From Sphingobium sp. YR768 (GTDB lineage: Bacteria > Pseudomonadota > Alphaproteobacteria > Sphingomonadales > Sphingomonadaceae), in assembly GCF_900111125.1 (NCBI RefSeq), contig NZ_FOGE01000015.1, forward strand, positions 62,001 to 126,000: a stretch of 64,000 nt of DNA, read 5' to 3'. A program made the translations under genes and the position numbers. Each line of letters starts with the position of its first letter. Within the stretch, counting starts at the first letter, position 1. Below, piece by piece: positions 2,886 to 19,477 of this stretch. A model generated the notes under the pieces. The model saw only the letters and a list, made by a program, of their open reading frames with translations, did no database searches and was not told where the DNA came from.

Positions 2886-4232
2886 ATGACGCCTGCCGAC
2901 TATCGCCTGCTGATCGCCGCCATCATCGGCATTGCCCTTTCCATCGCCCTGATCATTCGCGGCCGCCTGCACCCCTTTGTCGGCTTGCTCTGCGGCGCCT
3001 TCACCGTCGGCCTGATCGCCGGCCTGCCGATGGAGGACACGGCCAAGGCGGTTGAGAAGGGCGCGGGCAGTATCCTCGGCGGCACCGGCCTCGTCGTGGC
3101 ATTGGGCCTGGGCCTCGGCGCGATGCTGCAATTGTCGGACGGCGCCGGCGGCCTCGCCCGCGCGGCGTTGCGTATCTCGGGCGTAAAGGGCGCCCCTTGG
3201 GCCAGCCTGTTCACCGCCATCGTCATCGGCCTGCCGCTCTTCTTCGAAACCGGCCTCGTCCTGCTGCTGCCGATCGTTGCGTCGGCCGCCGCCGCGCTCC
3301 CTGCCGGACAGAATGGCGATACGGCAAAGCTCAAACTGATGCTGCCCGCGCTGTCGGGCCTGTCGGTGGTCCATGCGCTGGTGCCGCCGCATCCCGGCCC
3401 CTTGCTCGCGGTCAACGCGCTCGGCGCCAATCTCGGCCTCGCCCTCGTCTATGGCCTGATCGTCGGCATCCCCACCGCGATCATCGCCGGTCCCGTGCTC
3501 GCCCGCTTCACCGCCCCCGGTGTAAAGCTCAACCCGCCCTTGCTCGATCCGGTGAAGGTCGATGTCGCCACCCCTTCGGTCGGCCGCGCGCTGGCCGCCG
3601 TGCTGCTGCCGGTCGTCCTGATCGCCGCCGGACAGGCGGTGGCGCTGCTGCCACCCGCCGTCGCGCCGCATTTCCACTGGCTCGGCTGGGTCAGCGATCC
3701 CGTCGTCGCGCTGCTGATCGCGGTGCTGGTCGCGCTGCCTCTGTTGTTCGGCCGCCGCATCACCGACGCGAAGATTCAGAACGCCATCTGGTCCGAAGCG
3801 ATGATCCCGGCCGGCGGCATCATCCTGGCGATCGGCGCGGGCGGCGCGCTCAAGCAGGTGCTGGTCACGGCGGGCCTCTCCGACCTGCTGGTCCGATTCG
3901 CCGCAGGCGGCGCGATTTCGCCGATCCTGCTCGCGTGGGGCGTGTCGGTCTGCATCCGCCTCGCCACCGGTTCGGCCACGGTTGCCACCATCACCACCGC
4001 GGGCGTGATGCAGGGGCTGGTCGCCGCATCGGGCGTGGAGCCCGAATGGATGGTGCTGGCGATCGGCGCGGGCTCGCTCTTCTTCTCCCACGTCAACGAT
4101 CCCGGCTTCTGGCTGGTCAAATCCTATCTCGGCACGGACATGTCCGGCACGTTCAAGACCTGGTCGATCATGGAAACCGTGGTCGCGGTGGTCGGCCTGC
4201 TCCTCGTGCTTGTCGCGAGCAGCATCTTCTGA
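2886..4232 (+). CDS. gntP: GntP-family gluconate/sugar-acid permease
   Basis: A 448-residue polytopic membrane protein of the GntP (gluconate:H+ symporter) family, with about 12 hydrophobic segments. It has typical family stretches: IIRGRLHPFVGLLCGAF near the N-terminus, GLPLFFETGLVLLLP about residues 117-131, VPPHPGPLLAV, and FSHVNDPGFWLVKSY near the C-terminus. The ATG at 2886 has an ideal AGGAGG site 7 bases upstream, so it was preferred to the longer reading at 2850. It is followed by a GntR regulator and faces the periplasmic oxidoreductase and lactonase. Together these suggest sugar oxidation outside the cytoplasm followed by uptake of the acid. The exact substrate is not proved. Confidence 0.9.
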   Translation: MTPADYRLLIAAIIGIALSIALIIRGRLHPFVGLLCGAFTVGLIAGLPMEDTAKAVEKGAGSILGGTGLVVALGLGLGAMLQLSDGAGGLARAALRISGVKGAPWASLFTAIVIGLPLFFETGLVLLLPIVASAAAALPAGQNGDTAKLKLMLPALSGLSVVHALVPPHPGPLLAVNALGANLGLALVYGLIVGIPTAIIAGPVLARFTAPGVKLNPPLLDPVKVDVATPSVGRALAAVLLPVVLIAAGQAVALLPPAVAPHFHWLGWVSDPVVALLIAVLVALPLLFGRRITDAKIQNAIWSEAMIPAGGIILAIGAGGALKQVLVTAGLSDLLVRFAAGGAISPILLAWGVSVCIRLATGSATVATITTAGVMQGLVAASGVEPEWMVLAIGAGSLFFSHVNDPGFWLVKSYLGTDMSGTFKTWSIMETVVAVVGLLLVLVASSIF

Positions 4233-4246
4233 CTAGGAGGCACAGA

Positions 4247-4279
4247 ATGTTGCCCAGCGATCCACAGGTGCGCCGATGA
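4247..4279 (+). CDS. 10-codon leader ORF coupled to gntR
   Basis: After gntP there is a textbook AGGAGG (4235-4240) six bases before an ATG. The ATG opens a 10-codon frame (MLPSDPQVRR) whose TGA overlaps the ATG of the GntR gene (ATGA). The GntR frame itself has no start codon near that ribosome site, so ribosomes are expected to load on the mini-ORF and reinitiate on gntR. Whether the peptide has any role is unknown. Confidence 0.5.
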   Translation: MLPSDPQVRR

Positions 4280-4953
4280 ACCAGGTCCGGCTGTCCGACC
4301 ATGCCTATGCCGGCATTGTCGAGATCATCAACGACCAGGATCTGGAAGTCGGCGCCCGCCTGCCGTCGGAGGCGGCGCTGGCCGAGCGGTTCGGCGTATC
4401 CCGCGCGATCGTGCGCGAAGCGCTGGTCCGCCTCGCTTCGGACGGCATTACCGAAGCGCGCCGGGGCGCCGGCTCCTTCGTGAAGAGCCGCCCGTCGCAG
4501 CGCCTCGCCGCCTTCATGCCCGCGACCGAACTGCCCGCGACGCTGGGCAGCTATGAAGTCCGCTTCGTGCTGGAGGCGGAGGCTGCGCGCCTCGCCGCCA
4601 CCCGCCGCAGCGCGCTGGAAATGGCGCATGTCGAGGAAGGGATGGAGATGCTGCGCATCGCTCTCCTGTCGAGCGAACCCGCCCACGCCGAGGATATGGA
4701 ACTGCACCGCCGCATTGCCGAGGCGACCGGCAACCCGGCCTTCCTGATCGCCTTCGACGCGCTCCATGCCGATGTCGACAAGATCATGCGCGCCGGCGTC
4801 GACATCAGTCGCTCCCGCCCGCCCGAAGTGATCGCGACGATGCTGCGCGAACATCAACAGATCGTCGCCGCCATCCGCGCCCAGGACTCCGAAGGCGCCG
4901 CGCTCGCGATGCGTTGGCATTTGTGGGAAGGGCGGCGGCGGTTGATGCCTTGA
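4276..4953 (+). CDS. GntR-family (FadR subfamily) transcriptional regulator
   Basis: A 225-residue repressor-type protein. The winged helix is at residues 1-70 (SEAALAERFGVSRAIVREAL, then the wing EARRGAGSFV). An all-helical FCD effector domain follows, with metal/ligand-site residues in ELHRRIAEATGN and, near the C-terminus, REHQQIVAAIRAQD and MRWHL. FadR/FCD regulators commonly answer to organic or sugar acids, which fits the adjacent GntP permease. It is translated through a short leader ORF. It probably controls the gntP unit. Which of the two regulators near this locus binds which site is not visible. Confidence 0.88.
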   Translation: MNQVRLSDHAYAGIVEIINDQDLEVGARLPSEAALAERFGVSRAIVREALVRLASDGITEARRGAGSFVKSRPSQRLAAFMPATELPATLGSYEVRFVLEAEAARLAATRRSALEMAHVEEGMEMLRIALLSSEPAHAEDMELHRRIAEATGNPAFLIAFDALHADVDKIMRAGVDISRSRPPEVIATMLREHQQIVAAIRAQDSEGAALAMRWHLWEGRRRLMP

Positions 4954-9674: not shown

Positions 9675-10304
9675 CTACCCGCCTGTCGCCTCCGCGCCAT
9701 CCCCGGCGTGGAAGGCAATCCGCAGCGCTTCGGCCAGGCTCTTCACTTCCAGCTTCTGCATCAGGTTGGCGCGGTGGATTTCCACTGTGCGGGGGCTGAT
9801 GCCCAGGTCATAGGCGATGCTCTTATTGGGTAGCCCCTCGACGAGGCCATCCAGTACGTCGCGTTCCCGGTCGGTCAGGACGTTAAGGCGCGCCTGTGCT
9901 TCCTGCGCGCGGGCGCTTGCCCCGCGTGCGGCCACCGATTGTTTGCGGGCCGCCTCGATACAGGCGAGCAGCGATTGCTTGTCGAACGGCTTTTCGATGA
10001 AATCGCTGGCTCCGGCCTTCATCGCCGCGACCGCCATGTCGACGTCGCCATGGCCGGTCATGATCACGACCGGCAGCATCACGCCGCGCGCGCGCAATTC
10101 GCGCTGCACCTCCAGCCCGTCCATGTCGGGCATGCGCACGTCCAGCAGCACGCAGCCCTGCGGCAGGTCGGCGGCCTCCTTCAGGAAGGGCAGGCCGCCG
10201 TCGAACAGGGTGACGGCAAAGCCGCTGGTCTTGAGCAGGAAGGACAGGGACCGGCGGATCGCCTCGTCATCGTCCACGACATAAATGGGATAGGTGTCGC
10301 TCAT
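9675..10304 (-). CDS. fixJ: FixJ-family response regulator
   Basis: A 209-residue two-domain regulator. The receiver (1-120) has the acidic pair D11/D12, phospho-acceptor D55 in [11 protein letters not shown], and K105 in FIEKPFD. A LuxR-type HTH follows (about 140-205: [20 protein letters not shown], then [14 protein letters not shown]). Its ATG overlaps the stop of the kinase gene (ATGA), so the two are cotranslated. FixJ proteins activate genes for low-oxygen life, usually through a FixK. No fixK is in the window, but likely FNR/FixK boxes stand in front of hemN and ompW 3 kb away. Length and layout are those of the FixJ/TodT class. Confidence 0.9.
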
Positions 10305-11449
10305 TCTTCGTCCGCGCGGTCCAGGGTGAAATGAAAGGCGGTCCCGCCCCAGGGGGAGGGGGTCGCCCAGATGCGGCCGCCATGGCCTTCGACTATGGTC
10401 TGGCTGATCGACAGGCCCACGCCCATGCCGGTCGCCTTGCTGGTGGTGAAGGGGGTGAAGAGCGTGCGCGACATGTCGGGGCTGAGACCCGGCCCGGAAT
10501 CGGCGACCACCACCTCCACCTTGCCATCCTCCACCGGTATGGCCGTCAGGCGCAGGATGCGGACCGGGCGGCCCTCCATCGCTTCGACCGCATTCCTGAC
10601 GAGGTTGATGATGACCTGCTGCAACTGCACCCGGTTGACCAGCACATGGTCGACGGCGCGGTCGACCTGCACGTCCATGTCGATGCCGCGGCTGTCGGTG
10701 CCGATGAAGGCCAGTGCCGCCCCTTCCGCCAGCAGCGCGCGCATCGGTTCGGGCTGGCGCACGGTTTCGCCGCGCTTGATGAACTCGCGCAGCGACCGGA
10801 TGATCTCGCCCGCGCGCAGCGCCTGTTTTGCGCTTTCATCCATCGCCTCGCCCAGCATCTCGCGGTCGACCTCGCCCGGCATGGCGAGCAGGTCGCGCCC
10901 TGCCTCCATATAATTGGCGATCGCGGTCAGCGGCTGGTTCAGTTCATGCGCCAGCGCGGACGCCAGCGTGCCCATCGCCGTCACCCGGCTGGCATGGGCG
11001 AGCTCGGATTGCAGGTCGGCGACCCGCCGTTCGGCCTGTTGCCGCTCGGTAAGGTCGCGGATGAAGCCGGTGAACAGCCGCTGCCCCTGATCCTGCACTT
11101 CGCCCACCGACAATTCGATCGGAAAGGTGGAACCGTCCCGCCGCCGCGCGCTGGTGAGGCGACCGACGCCGATGATCCGCTTTTCGCCGGTGGTGCGATA
11201 ATGCTCGATATAGCCGTCATGCCGTTCCCGGTCGGGGGAGGGCATCAGCATCGAGATATTCTCGCCCAGCACGTCGCTTTCGGCATATTGGAACATGCGC
11301 TGTGCCGCCGCGCTGAACGACACGATCCGCCCGCGCAGGTCGATCACGATCAGCGCATCGGGCACCGTCGCTAGGATCGATCCCAGCAGCGCCTGTTCCA
11401 GACTATGCGCATTCGTAAGTGCGTCGCTGTCATCATCCGCTACCGCCAT
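10301..11449 (-). CDS. fixL: FixL-like oxygen-sensing histidine kinase with haem PAS
   Basis: A 382-residue kinase without membrane segments. The PAS domain (about 20-135) follows rhizobial FixL closely. H77 in [10 protein letters not shown] corresponds to the haem-ligand His200 of Bradyrhizobium FixL, and I92 and R97 in RIIGVGR correspond to the distal Ile215 and Arg220, so haem and oxygen binding are expected. The kinase core has H168 in LAHELNQPL, the N box [10 protein letters not shown], and ADSGPG and [12 protein letters not shown] motifs. The ATG at 11449 matches the natural start of the domain. Longer readings run into the stress-protein gene. It forms a coupled pair with fixJ. Confidence 0.9.
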
Positions 11450-11469
11450 GCGCCTTCCATGCCGTCCTT

Positions 11470-12282
11470 TCAGTGCGCCAGCAAGAGCGGCACGGGCGCG
11501 GTGCGCAGCAGCGAGCGAGTGACGCCACCGAAGATCAGTTCGCGCCAGCGGCCATGGCCAAAGGCGCCCATCACGACCCAGTCGGCACCCAAGGTGGCGA
11601 TCGCTTCCCGCAGGGCGATATCGGTCGTCCGGTCGGCGCGCGGCCAACTGTGCAATTGCGCCTTTATGCCATGGCGGGCCAGATATTCCGGCGCATCGAT
11701 CGCAGGAAAGGGCGTGTCGCGATCCTCCACGGTCACGATGTCGACCGCCTCCGCCAGCTTGAGCAGCGGCACTGCTGCGCGCAGCGCGGCCCCGGCGGGA
11801 TGCGATCCGTCCCACGCCACCAGCGCGCGGCCGGTGACGGCAAAGCCCTTCGCCTCCAGCGGCACGGCCAGCACCGGCGTCCGTCCGCCCAGCGCCAGAT
11901 CGGCGGCGATTGGCAGGGGGGATTGCAGGCTGCTCCGCCCGCCTTCGGGCAGGCTGGCGACGATCAGGTCCGCCAATTTCGCCGCATCGAGCAGGCCGGG
12001 CAGGCTGTCGCCCTCCATCTGGCGCCAGTCCCAGGCGACGTCCTCCTGCACGAAGCGCGCCTCGATCCGGGTGCGGAAGGCCTGATCTATCGCATGGAGT
12101 TCCGCCGCGATCACCGGGGAATAGCCCATGCCATCCTGCGCCCCTGCCGCCATCAGTTCGGGCATGGGCGTCACCTGGACGCACTGGACATGGGCGCTAC
12201 AGGCGCGGGCCAGATCGCAGGCGGCCTGCAACCGGCTTTCGGCGCCCAGATCGTCATGGATATGCAGCAGGATCGTCTTCAT
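11470..12282 (-). CDS. Tandem universal stress protein (UspA family)
   Basis: A 270-residue protein made of two UspA domains. The first begins [11 protein letters not shown]. The second begins near residue 150 and ends with the nucleotide-binding glycine pattern [15 protein letters not shown]...RSLL. Only the second domain keeps the full ATP-type signature. Tandem Usp proteins often belong to low-oxygen and stress regulons in alphaproteobacteria, and this one sits 20 bases before fixL on the same strand. It probably shares its transcript. Its biochemical role (nucleotide-controlled stress switch) is inferred from family only. Confidence 0.85.
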
Positions 12283-15380: not shown

Positions 15381-15450
15381 CCCCCTTCGCATTTGATGCA
15401 GGCGCCCCTACATGGTGGCGGACCCTCATCGCATATTTGCAGGAGATAGA

Positions 15451-16044
15451 ATGGCTACCAATCCCCGCGCGGTAACCCGTGCCGTCGATACGCTTTTTCT
15501 CGATCGCTGGTCGCCCCGCGCATTCGATTCCTCCGCCATTCCGCAGGATGATCTGGACACGATTTTCGATGGTGCGCGCTGGGCGCCGTCCGCCTTCAAC
15601 TATCAGCCCTGGCGCTTCCTCTATGCGCATCGCGATGGCGCCGACTGGCAGCGTTTCCTGGACGTCCTGCTGCCTTTCAACCAGAGCTGGGTGCAGAATG
15701 CCGGCGCCATCGTCTTCGTCCTGTCCGACACGCTGATGGCGGCGCCGGGCTCCGAAGACTATAAGCCGTCCTACAGCCACAGCTTCGATGCCGGCGCCGC
15801 CTGGGCGCTGCTGGCGTTGCAAGCGACGCGGCTGGGCTACCACACCCATGGCATGACCGGGGTGGATTTCGACAAGGCGCGCGCCGAACTGGGCGTGCCC
15901 GATCGTTTCCGTATCGAAGCCGCCATCGCCATCGGCAAGCAGGGCGACAAGGCCGTGCTGCCCGAAGCGCTGCAGGCGCGCGAAGCGCCCAGCGATCGCA
16001 AGCCGATCGAGAGCTTCGCTTTCGAAGGGAATTTCCCCGCCTGA
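15451..16044 (+). CDS. Nitroreductase family protein (FMN)
   Basis: A 196-residue FMN-dependent oxidoreductase of the nitroreductase fold. The N-terminal phosphate-binding motif RWSPRAFDSS is at about residues 18-27, with GARWAPSAFNYQPWRF after it and a C-terminal GKQGDKAVLP that contributes to the flavin site. It reduces nitro, quinone or enone compounds with NAD(P)H. The physiological substrate is not given by sequence. The ATG at 15451 follows AGGAGA by 4 bases. A strong stem-loop lies 44 bases after its stop, just before the LOV photoreceptor gene. Confidence 0.88.
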   Translation: MATNPRAVTRAVDTLFLDRWSPRAFDSSAIPQDDLDTIFDGARWAPSAFNYQPWRFLYAHRDGADWQRFLDVLLPFNQSWVQNAGAIVFVLSDTLMAAPGSEDYKPSYSHSFDAGAAWALLALQATRLGYHTHGMTGVDFDKARAELGVPDRFRIEAAIAIGKQGDKAVLPEALQAREAPSDRKPIESFAFEGNFPA

Positions 16045-16087
16045 TCCAGCCGCTTGCGGCTGGCGTCCAGATTGGGCAACATGGCTG

Positions 16088-16115
16088 AAGGGCGCCGCAT
16101 TGGTGGCGCCCTTTT
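16088..16115 (+). terminator. Terminator or attenuator before the LOV operon
   Basis: GGGCGCC and GGCGCCC form a perfect 7-bp stem around an 8-base loop, followed by TTTTC. It ends only 21 bases before the LOV-HTH start, which leaves no room for a full promoter between. It may therefore be both the nitroreductase terminator and a leader hairpin of the next operon. Confidence 0.7.
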
Positions 16116-16135
16116 CGTCATCTGGTGCCCTGTCC

Positions 16136-16705
16136 ATGTCTCTGCCCGAAATGATCGCCGAAAGTGCCGTGGCGGCGGTCATCACCAATCCGCGCCTGCC
16201 GGACAATCCGATCGTCGAATGCAACGATGCCTTCACCGCGCTGACCGGATTCCAGCGGGACGAGATTGTCGGGCGCAACTGCCGCTTTCTGGCAGGGGAC
16301 GATCCGCCGGGGCCGCAGGTGGAGATTATCCGTGCGGCGCTGCGCGATCGTCGGCCGATATTGGTGGAACTGCGCAATTATCGCAAGGATGGCACGCCCT
16401 TTCGCAATGCGGTGATGATCGCGCCGATCTTTGGCGCGGACGGAACGCTGGATTATTTCCTGGGATCGCAGATGGCGGTCGAAGGCGACCGGGGAGATGA
16501 TGCGCGGGCCCGGATCGCGACCCTGACCGATCGGCAACGCACCGTATTGGTCGCCATGACGGCCGGCCGGCTGAACAAGCAGATCGCCTTTGATCTTGGC
16601 CTGACGGAACGCACCGTGAAGATGCACCGCGCCGCGATGCTGCGCGCGCTGGATGTGCGGACGGCGGCCGAAGCGATCCGGCTGGCGATCGAGGCGGGGC
16701 TGTAG
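16136..16705 (+). CDS. LOV-HTH blue-light photoreceptor/transcription factor (EL222-like)
   Basis: A 189-residue one-component regulator. The LOV domain (about 1-115) contains the diagnostic GRNCRFLAG, with C49 as the residue that forms the flavin adduct, plus ELRNYRKDGTPFRNAV and the Gln in YFLGSQ. A LuxR-type HTH follows (about 128-188: LTDRQRTVLVAMTAGRLNKQ, RTVKMHRAAMLRAL). Domain order, length and wording match EL222 of Erythrobacter litoralis, which dimerises and binds DNA under blue light. ATG 16136 was chosen as the first ATG giving a full LOV domain. No clear ribosome site supports it. It is followed 4 bases later by the DUF969 gene. Confidence 0.88.
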   Translation: MSLPEMIAESAVAAVITNPRLPDNPIVECNDAFTALTGFQRDEIVGRNCRFLAGDDPPGPQVEIIRAALRDRRPILVELRNYRKDGTPFRNAVMIAPIFGADGTLDYFLGSQMAVEGDRGDDARARIATLTDRQRTVLVAMTAGRLNKQIAFDLGLTERTVKMHRAAMLRALDVRTAAEAIRLAIEAGL

Positions 16706-16709
16706 CGGC

Positions 16710-17384
16710 ATGGTGCTGCTGGGCATCGCGATCATCGTGGCGGGATTCCTGCTGCGCTTTCATCCCTTGCTGGTCATCCTCGCGTCGGCGATCGTCACCG
16801 GCCTTGCCGCCGGGCTGGACCCGCTGGCGATCATCGCCGCGCTGGGCAAGGCCTTCAACGAGGCGCGCTATGTCAGCATCATCTGGATCGTGCTGCCGGT
16901 CGTGGGCCTGCTGGAGGCGAACGGGCTTCAGGAGCGGGCACGGGGCCTGATCGGCCGGATGCATGGGGCGACCGTCGGCCGCTTCCTCACCGGCTATCTG
17001 CTGCTGCGACAGGCGCTGGCGGCGGTGGGGCTGACATCGGTGGCGGGCCATCCACAGACGGTGCGCCCGCTGGTCGCGCCGATCGCCGAAGCGGCCGCTG
17101 AGGCGCAGGCCGGGGAATTGAGCGAGGGCGATCGCGAAGAAATCAAAGCCTGGGCCGCAGCGACCGACAATATCGGGCTGTTCTTTGGCGAGGATATCTT
17201 TCTGGCGATCGGATCGATCCTTCTGATCAAGGGGCTGCTGGAGCAATATGACATCGTGCTGGAGCCGCTCCAGCTATCGGTCTGGGCGATCCCGACCGCG
17301 ATCGCGGCCTTCCTGATCCACGGTTTCCGGCTCTGGCGGCTCGACAGGCGGCTGAAGCGGGGCCGGGGAGCCAGGGCAGCATGA
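16710..17384 (+). CDS. DUF969 family membrane protein
   Basis: A 224-residue polytopic membrane protein of the DUF969 family. Hydrophobic segments are visible at about 2-20 (MVLLGIAIIVAGFLLRF), 24-45, 65-85, and near the C-terminus (WAIPTAIAAFLIHGF). Conserved-looking loops are FNEARYVSIIWIVLPVVGLLE and TSVAGHPQTVRPL. DUF969 and DUF979 genes are typically adjacent and are thought to make up a two-subunit permease. In Gram-positive bacteria such pairs can lie near pyrrolidone-carboxylate peptidase. It starts 4 bases after the LOV gene and overlaps the DUF979 gene (ATGA). Substrate unknown. Confidence 0.85.
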   Translation: MVLLGIAIIVAGFLLRFHPLLVILASAIVTGLAAGLDPLAIIAALGKAFNEARYVSIIWIVLPVVGLLEANGLQERARGLIGRMHGATVGRFLTGYLLLRQALAAVGLTSVAGHPQTVRPLVAPIAEAAAEAQAGELSEGDREEIKAWAAATDNIGLFFGEDIFLAIGSILLIKGLLEQYDIVLEPLQLSVWAIPTAIAAFLIHGFRLWRLDRRLKRGRGARAA

Positions 17385-18304
17385 TCACGCTCCACTGGGT
17401 CTATGCCATCGCCGGGGCTATCTTTGCCGCCTATGCGCTGCTCGGCGCGCGCGAACGGCCGGTCAACGCCGCCTTCTGGGCGTTGCTGGCGCTCAGCATG
17501 TGGGCGGGCGACCGGCTTGGCGATCTGGGCAACGGTATCTTGGTGCTGGGGCTGGTGGCTCTGGGCGTGCTGGGGCGACTGGGGCGCAGCGATGGCGCGG
17601 TGCCGTTGGAGGTGCGTCAAGCACGGGCAGCGAAATTCGGCAATCGGCTGTTCGTCATCGCGCTGATCATCCCCGCTACGGCGCTGCTTGGCACGATCCT
17701 GTTCAAGCAGGCGCCCGACTGGTTCGACGGGAAACAGGCGACGCTGATCGCGCTGGCGCTGGGCGTGCTGATCGCCATGGTCACGGGATGCCTGTGGTTG
17801 CGCGCCGGGCCGATGGTGCCGCTGGAACAGGGGCGGCGCCTGATGGACAGTGTCGGCTGGGCGGCGATCCTGCCGCAGATGCTGGCCAGCCTGGGCGCTG
17901 TCTTCGCTCTGGCGGGCGTCGGCGATGTCGTGGGCGGCATCGTGCAACAGGCGATCCCGCAGGGCAGCCTGCTGGGCGCGGTGATCGCCTATGGGCTGGG
18001 CATGGCGCTCTTCACCATGATCATGGGCAATGCCTTCGCCGCCTTTCCGGTGATGACGGCGGCGATCGGCATTCCGCTGTTGATCCACACCTATCATGGC
18101 GATCCCGCCGTGGTCTGCGCGATCGGGATGCTGGCGGGCTTTTGCGGCACATTGCTGACGCCCATGGCCGCCAATTTCAACCTCGTCCCCGCCGCCCTGC
18201 TGGAACTGAAAGACGAGCATGGCGTCATCAAGCGGCAGGTCGGCACCGCCGTTCCGTTGCTGATCGTCAACATCCTCCTGATCTACTGGCTGGCTTTCCC
18301 ATGA
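17381..18304 (+). CDS. DUF979 family membrane protein
   Basis: A 307-residue membrane protein with eight to ten hydrophobic segments of the DUF979 family. It has AKFGNRLFVIALIIPATALLGT mid-N-terminal, GWAAILPQMLASLGAVFALAGVG, GNAFAAFPVMTAAIG, and a C-terminal LIVNILLIYWLAFP. It is the partner of DUF969 and probably the main transport subunit. The gene overlaps both neighbours by four bases (ATGA at each end), indicating fixed stoichiometry. Its substrate is not known. The neighbouring DUF2891 protein may process it. Confidence 0.85.
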   Translation: MITLHWVYAIAGAIFAAYALLGARERPVNAAFWALLALSMWAGDRLGDLGNGILVLGLVALGVLGRLGRSDGAVPLEVRQARAAKFGNRLFVIALIIPATALLGTILFKQAPDWFDGKQATLIALALGVLIAMVTGCLWLRAGPMVPLEQGRRLMDSVGWAAILPQMLASLGAVFALAGVGDVVGGIVQQAIPQGSLLGAVIAYGLGMALFTMIMGNAFAAFPVMTAAIGIPLLIHTYHGDPAVVCAIGMLAGFCGTLLTPMAANFNLVPAALLELKDEHGVIKRQVGTAVPLLIVNILLIYWLAFP

Positions 18305-19290
18305 CCCTTTTGACCCAAGATATTGCCGGCCGTTTTGCGGTGCTCACTTTGTCGCATCTCGGGCGGCGCTACCCCTATAAGATGGATCTGGTCTGGGCCG
18401 GGCCGCAGGATGCGCGGGAACCGGCCGAACATCACCCCATCTTCCATGGCAGTTTCGACTGGCATAGCTGCGTCCATGGCTGGTGGCAGGTGATGCGGTT
18501 GATGCGGCTTTATCCCGACATGGAGATTGCCGCTGAAATCCGCGCGTGGGCGGACGCGATGCTGGTGCCGGACAAGGTGGCGGGCGAACTGGCCTATCTT
18601 AACCGGCCGCTCAGCGCGGGGTTTGAGCGGCCCTATGGCTGGGCTTGGCTGCTGGCGCTGCATCAGGAACTGGTGCTGCATGACGCACCCTGGGCGCAGG
18701 CGATCGCGCCGCTGGCCGACGCCTTTGCCGCGCGCTTCCATGCCTTCCTGCCCAAGCTGACCTATCCGCTGCGGGTCGGCACCCATTTCAACATCGCCTT
18801 CGCGCTGACGCTGGCGCTGGGCTGGGCGCAGACGCGTGATCCCGCATTGGTGACGCTGATTCGCGATCGGGCGATCGGCTGGTTCGGGCAGGACAAGGGC
18901 TGTCAGGCGTGGGAGCCGGGTGGGGACGAATTCCTGTCCTCCGCGCTCACCGAAGCGCTGTTGATGAGCCGCCTGCTGTCCGGCGCGGATTTCGCCATCT
19001 GGTTCCATGATTTCCTGCCGCATCTGGGGGAAGGAACACCGAGGACCCTGTTCACCCCGGCCATCGTGTCCGATCGCGGCGACGGCAAGATCGCGCATCT
19101 CGACGGGCTGAACCTCAGCCGCGCCTGGTGCTGGCGCGGGATCGCGGCGGCGCTGGGGGTGGATGATCCGGTCAGCGCTTTGGCGCAGGATGCCGCGCGC
19201 GTGCATATCGACGCCAGCCTGCCGCATGTCGCAGGCGACTATATGGGCGAACATTGGCTCGCCACCTTCGCGCTGCTGGCGCTGGAATAG
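18301..19290 (+). CDS. DUF2891 family protein
   Basis: A 329-residue soluble protein of the DUF2891 family, probably an alpha/alpha barrel by its regular helices and aromatic/acidic loops. Notable motifs are HPIFHGSFDWHSCVHGWWQ at about 40-58, RPYGWAWLLALHQEL, YPLRVGTHFNIAFAL, and EPGGDEFLSSALTEALLM, whose His/Asp/Glu pattern resembles glycoside-processing or metal enzymes. No enzymatic role is established. It overlaps the DUF979 gene by four bases and ends the LOV operon. No signal peptide, so cytoplasmic. Confidence 0.82.
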   Translation: MTLLTQDIAGRFAVLTLSHLGRRYPYKMDLVWAGPQDAREPAEHHPIFHGSFDWHSCVHGWWQVMRLMRLYPDMEIAAEIRAWADAMLVPDKVAGELAYLNRPLSAGFERPYGWAWLLALHQELVLHDAPWAQAIAPLADAFAARFHAFLPKLTYPLRVGTHFNIAFALTLALGWAQTRDPALVTLIRDRAIGWFGQDKGCQAWEPGGDEFLSSALTEALLMSRLLSGADFAIWFHDFLPHLGEGTPRTLFTPAIVSDRGDGKIAHLDGLNLSRAWCWRGIAAALGVDDPVSALAQDAARVHIDASLPHVAGDYMGEHWLATFALLALE

Positions 19291-19402: not shown

Positions 19403-19477
19403 TGGTGACCCCTACGGGAATCGAACCCGTGTTTCAGCCGTGAAAGGGCCGCGTCCTAACCGCTAGACGAAGGGGCC
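19403..19477 (-). tRNA. tRNA-Glu (anticodon TTC)
   Basis: Read on the minus strand: acceptor arm GGCCCCT pairs with AGGGGTC (one G-U pair), the D-arm is TCTAGCGGTTAGGA, the anticodon loop CTTTCAC carries TTC, and the T-arm is CGGGTTCGATTCCCG. The CCA end is encoded. All standard cloverleaf features are present. It is alone, between the LOV operon and recJ. Confidence 0.97.

Follow-up and report, generated by a model that had tools for sequence, protein, structure and literature searches.

The stretch of DNA analysed here, 64,000 nucleotides from Sphingobium sp. YR768 (contig NZ_FOGE01000015.1, positions 62,001 to 126,000 of the forward strand) and called the window below, carries four closely packed genes on its + strand in which a predicted blue-light regulator precedes a predicted transport operon. 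The first gene (16136-16705) encodes an EL222-like one-component regulator with a LOV domain and a helix-turn-helix (LOV-HTH), recognized in Pfam as PAS_9 and GerE. The second (16710-17384) encodes a DUF969 protein (PF06149, E=3e-87), a putative half of a transporter for 5-oxoproline, a waste product of amino-acid metabolism (PMC12795558, PMC11467057; papers are cited here from the portion of their text that was available), and the third (17381-18304) encodes a DUF979 protein (PF06166, E=6.6e-110), the putative second half (PMC11467057). The fourth (18301-19290) encodes an all-helical DUF2891 protein (Pfam E=2.5e-126). The spacings between the four genes are +4, -4 and -4 bases in window coordinates, and we predict that they form a single transcript. 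An earlier note on this DNA, made from the letters alone, had described this arrangement, and Pfam and PDB comparisons confirm it.

The best PDB matches of the LOV protein are EL222 (8a5r, E=3e-53) and 3p7n, which is annotated as a sensor histidine kinase (E=5.9e-53); both cover the LOV and HTH parts, and the alignment to 8a5r runs across residues 5-189. The GerE HTH lies at residues 129-184 (E=2.1e-14), and no kinase family is among the Pfam matches. The protein shares with EL222 of Erythrobacter litoralis a photoactive-cysteine LOV domain, a C-terminal LuxR-type HTH and the lack of a kinase. It contains both GRNCRFLAG, with the photoactive cysteine kept, and LGSQ; we take this cysteine and the conserved glutamine to be the diagnostic residues of a LOV domain. 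Judged by its domains and residues, the window protein is an EL222-type LOV-HTH regulator, for which DNA binding in blue light is putative. Four LOV-HTH paralogues elsewhere in the genus (L121-L124, in genomes G369, G378, G036 and G396) have LGSL in place of LGSQ, and the L124 copy also lacks GRNCRFL, its LGSQ-type row reading LGSLT; these LOV proteins may be altered or independent of light.

The arrangement is not peculiar to one strain, which the earlier note had named as a condition that would refute its idea. Among 94 genomes of the genus, an EL222-like LOV gene is present in 49 (E up to 1e-36) and DUF979 in 42 (43 loci), and coordinates and gene context place the LOV gene directly before DUF969-DUF979-DUF2891 (the trio) in 21. 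All 21 of these LOV copies keep NCRF, LGSQ and KMHR and have no internal stop. The gap between LOV and DUF969 is 0 to 22 bp across the linked loci, and the linkage persists over LOV proteins as low as about 70-72% identity. Named carriers include Sphingobium sp. AP50, S. psychrophilum, S. xenophagum NBRC 107872, Sphingobium sp. AS12 and Leaf26. This conservation indicates that the order is more than chance. The earlier note had called the photoreceptor "locked" and "welded" to the transporter, which is too strong, as the genes are apart in 11 of the 32 genus genomes that have both. In a 298-genome sample of the family, 28 genomes from outside the genus carry both genes, linked in none of them, and the closest pair is 99 kb apart.

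The LOV gene has a wider setting. The neighbourhood survey covered 39 of 80 loci among the matches listed. At 33 named loci outside Sphingobium (L140-L173 without L161), in genera that include Novosphingobium, Sphingopyxis, Gluconobacter and Gluconacetobacter, an amine-oxidase-like gene stands head to head with the LOV gene in 20, FolE lies between or beside the two in 10 and a photolyase gene is inside the locus in six. In S. xenophagum and its kin both settings meet, with FolE/amine oxidase on one side of the LOV gene and the trio on the other. Because this setting consists of photolyase, FolE and a flavin adenine dinucleotide (FAD) amine oxidase, the LOV protein does not seem to serve the transporter alone, and a dedicated light-transporter module was rejected as too narrow.

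The promoter region of the LOV gene contains a sequence that we refer to as the box, GCAACATGGCTGAAGGG (16076-16092, + strand), an exact match to GCAACATGN4AAGGG located 43 bp before the gene; none of 200 shuffles reached this match. The box is found with at most two mismatches upstream of 23 of 39 LOV genes (the genus plus two relatives) and in 18 of 39 named LOV loci, at 27-62 bp from the LOV start and with differing neighbour genes. In the window genome there are six matches with at most one mismatch, versus two for a control pattern. One is at the LOV promoter and one at the photolyase promoter; three fall within called genes, and the last has no gene clearly downstream of it. The stricter pattern GCAAYATGNNCNAAGGG has 16 exact matches in the 94 genomes, source loci of the pattern included, and by position 12 of these fall in LOV or photolyase promoters (the other four are two within genes and two without a clear gene); the reversed control has one. 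The folE gene of the window genome was dropped as a target, as no box with at most three mismatches occurs across its 3.6-kb locus.

The photolyase promoters provide a more independent test. A photolyase gene was found in 81 of the 94 genomes and its start could be placed in 78 (G394, G405 and G017 were left out). The box recurs 39-44 bp before this gene, at 39 bp in the window genome. A box 36-46 bp before photolyase with at most three mismatches is present in 24 of the 28 genomes whose LOV protein is at least 70% identical and in 4 of 13 at 57-69%; it is present in none of the three at 44-47% and in none of the 34 genomes without the LOV gene. Shuffled sequences had a box at three mismatches in 12 of 3900 cases. 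The LOV protein is predicted to bind the box, which the LOV and photolyase promoters share.

The two promoters differ in where the box lies. In 30 photolyase promoters picked for having the box, TTGGAACC comes directly after it, with CATTG about 16 bp further downstream; the element TTGGAACC-N16-CATTG is conserved, for example, at L130. The GGAAC in these promoters presumably recalls the -35 element of the EcfG general-stress sigma factor of alphaproteobacteria. A TTGGAA...CAT(T) pair occurs before photolyase in 36 of the 41 genomes with a LOV protein at least 57% identical, in one of the three at 44-47% and also in 16 of the 34 without LOV. Therefore, the box resembles an extra element placed 5' of a core promoter. 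This is the position from which EL222 activates in pBLind, whereas pBLrep, with its operator between -35 and -10, is repressed in light (PMC9614035, in its available text). The position of the box upstream of a -35-like element thus suggests activation of photolyase. At the LOV promoter, the box overlaps a putative -10 hexamer, CAACAT (16077-16082, + strand), with a putative -35 element, TTGCGG, at 16054-16059 on the same strand; a CAACAT-like hexamer preceded at 17-18 bp by TTGCNN occurs in 37 of 59 promoters, a set of 39 LOV promoters, 18 named loci picked after the box search and two loci with the box only, several of them near copies. This overlap tentatively hints at repression by light. 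The layout is read with reserve because the generic sigma-70 scan called no promoter in the region; the terminator scan called no terminator there.

The earlier note had regarded the substrate of DUF969/DUF979 as unknown. That no longer quite holds, as 5-oxoproline is now a strong candidate. In Campylobacter jejuni a DUF969-DUF979-DUF2891 operon was required for the use of 5-oxoproline, in what the available text presents as a preliminary growth phenotype (PMC12795558), and DUF979 is placed in the ion transporter superfamily (PMC11467057). In these two sources, as available, the function of the pair is drawn from gene neighbourhood and that one preliminary growth experiment. The window trio has all three families of the C. 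jejuni-type operon, in the same order and on the same strand. An OplAH-type 5-oxoprolinase is encoded in all 42 genus genomes with DUF979 (near full-length matches, although that of G029 has an internal stop) versus 4 of the 52 without it (Fisher p=1.7e-22, with no correction for kinship). The OplAH gene precedes the trio, in the same orientation, at 7 of the 43 genus loci and at 23 of the 29 loci examined, out of 112, outside the genus. The OplAH of the window genome lies at G000:C69:122072-125629 and is 70% identical to that of L102, which has the Hydant_A_N, Hydantoinase_A and Hydantoinase_B domains. PxpABC was considered as the partner enzyme and rejected; PxpA was matched in one of the 94 genus genomes, and E. 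coli PxpA had no match at E<=1e-20 in the genome of the window.

The DUF2891 protein, which the earlier note had described as uncharacterized, does have a solved relative, C. jejuni Cj0554 (8ieu, 8iev), whose structure matches the model. An attempt to read its function from the fold was given up, as only its own family stood out in the structure comparison.

The trio loci outside the linkage display some instructive patterns. We scanned the 700 bp upstream of the 22 (of 43) genus loci that are unlinked to LOV. In three of them (G377, G378 and G036) the box is present at zero or one mismatch, 110-117 bp before DUF969, with TTGCGG 17 bp before CAACAT; downstream, an ATG opens a leader open reading frame of some 20 codons, and DUF969 follows its stop after 12 bp. 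This junction resembles the 12-bp class of LOV-DUF969 junctions. The simplest reading would be that the body of the LOV gene was deleted and that its promoter now drives the trio directly. Each of the three genomes holds another LOV gene, 60-62% identical. In a tree of the three joined proteins (53 tips, six without a DUF2891 gene call scored as gaps), the LOV-linked, box-only and amidase-led loci (see below) stand apart from the rest with a support of 0.982; some inner nodes are below 0.5, and the one that places the box-only loci has 0.205. By parsimony only, this pattern would correspond to a single gain of the LOV linkage and two or more losses of LOV.

With moderate confidence, we propose that the LOV-HTH protein is a blue-light photorepair regulator and that the promoter of its gene drives 5-oxoproline uptake as well. 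The protein would be an EL222-type transcription factor with a conserved job in photorepair (photolyase and, in relatives, FolE and the FAD amine oxidase). The trio would have become attached behind the LOV gene in one lineage of the genus and would now be transcribed from the box-bearing promoter of that gene, and the imported 5-oxoproline would be opened to glutamate by the OplAH encoded elsewhere in the genome. The earlier note had proposed that light controls the transporter operon, and this part remains plausible, given the synteny in 21 genomes, the box at the LOV promoter and the three loci that have the promoter only; it is the notion of a regulator devoted to the transporter that looks too narrow. 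A more doubtful, though possible, extension is that EL222-family LOV-HTH proteins natively control photoreactivation in response to blue light and that the one in this lineage gives opposite orders: in light it would raise photolyase from a box upstream of -35 and lower the LOV operon, 5-oxoproline uptake included, from a box over -10. If true, light would trade nitrogen scavenging against DNA repair.

Several observations weigh against this proposal. Only 12 of the 21 linked LOV promoters match the box with at most two mismatches, and the other nine do so at four to five, a level often met by shuffles. At four mismatches the photolyase counts become 27 of 28, 6 of 13 and 0 of 3, and one of the 34 genomes without LOV also passes; the p value for the photolyase box, 1e-10, is a guide only, as the genomes are related and the counts carry no phylogeny correction. 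Nineteen of the 22 unlinked trio loci have no box with at most three mismatches. Four of the genus trio loci, and probably a fifth (L081, cut by a contig end), lie behind a penicillin-amidase-family gene, with the box absent in the four and the LOV gene elsewhere in the genome. The remaining LOV protein in G036 and G378 reads LGSL instead of LGSQ and may not serve the retained box, so light control in these two genomes is uncertain. Light control of OplAH was rejected, since the 400 bp upstream contained no box at 18 of 20 loci, L330 and L333 having only two- to three-mismatch matches.

The main rival of the proposal is that the trio is a passenger that happened to land behind the LOV gene, being expressed by read-through or from a promoter within that gene, so that any light control would have no selected role. 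The single gain with at least two losses fits this, as do the 22 unlinked loci, but the linkage has been kept across diverged LOV proteins, and in three genomes the promoter was apparently kept after the LOV body was lost; we therefore consider it rather unlikely. The box could also be a core promoter element only, with the LOV protein acting elsewhere. The -10-like hexamer inside the box, at a proper spacing from TTGC in the 37 promoters mentioned above, speaks for this view. At photolyase, however, the box precedes a TTGGAACC-N16-CATTG pair that is distinct from it and, with at most three mismatches, is not found there in the 34 genomes without LOV, and we give this possibility little credence. 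It is even more improbable that the trio handles or imports some other compound, with DUF2891 acting as a sugar-type hydrolase or epimerase, in view of the co-occurrence and adjacency of OplAH and the C. jejuni mutant phenotype (PMC12795558, as available).

Each part of this system belongs to a known kind; what would be new is the pairing, together with evidence on natural targets of an EL222-type protein, although some of this may already be known. EL222 is in wide use as an optogenetic switch, and for the window protein, unlike EL222, comparative genomics allows native targets to be proposed. A 2012 paper by Rivera-Cancel et al. is said, by its title, to concern natural EL222 DNA sites, and some native sites are reportedly already published. 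The half sites of the box fit only partly the RGNCY half sites of published EL222 operators, which resemble parts of it (PMC10521638, in the text available). The C. jejuni operon, Cj0552-Cj0554, has the same three families in the same order but is reported to respond to glutamine, and the available text of PMC12795558 mentions no LOV gene with it. In other genomes of the family, the trio follows OplAH, a 5-oxoprolinase instead of a photoreceptor. The regulons of class II LitR and short LOV in Pseudomonas include light-inducible PhrB and FolE, and the cluster also contains a gene for an FAD-dependent oxidoreductase, like the LOV neighbours here; they differ in using two proteins instead of a single LOV-HTH, and no transporter trio is mentioned in the accessible portion of PMC9758184. 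Regulated uptake and hydrolysis of 5-oxoproline are also known from PxpTABC of Corynebacterium glutamicum, which differs in having an APC-superfamily transporter, the PxpABC enzyme and a GntR-type 5-oxoproline sensor (PMC13274462, in its available text). Searches of the open-access literature found no paper that joins LOV-HTH with DUF969/DUF979, no earlier proposal that links blue light to 5-oxoproline uptake and none that names native EL222 target genes, which may be partly known. If the proposal is correct, the locus ties blue light to 5-oxoproline uptake, and light may set the amount imported. The box common to the LOV and photolyase promoters makes the natural role of an EL222-type protein directly testable.

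The loci led by the amidase are L083, L086, L087 and L088, besides probably L081; the trio begins 9 bp behind the penicillin-amidase-family gene (Pfam was tested on L087), which is perhaps another source of the imported compound.

Several other features surround the operon. A nitroreductase-family gene (15412-16044, + strand; PF00881; start possibly 15451) ends 91 bp upstream of the LOV gene, and its membership in the operon is only putative. It is a syntenic neighbour, immediately 5' of LOV in 15 of the 21 linked loci; in five more, FolE and amine oxidase stand between the two. Between the box and the LOV start is a hairpin with a short T run (16087-16114, + strand; 12-bp stem, -23.1 kcal/mol for 16084-16118), perhaps a terminator of the nitroreductase gene or an attenuator, and comparable inverted repeats occur at further nitroreductase-LOV loci. 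The downstream edge of the operon is marked by a tRNA-Glu gene (19403-19477, - strand), the sole match in an Rfam scan of the region; a RecJ gene is also found downstream, on the strand opposite to the operon. Elsewhere in the window, a GntP-family permease gene at 2886-4953 is followed, within this interval, by a second gene that we assume to encode a GntR/FadR-type regulator, and at 9675-12282 a pair consisting of a PAS histidine kinase and a LuxR-type response regulator, FixL/FixJ-like by domains, adjoins a universal stress protein gene.

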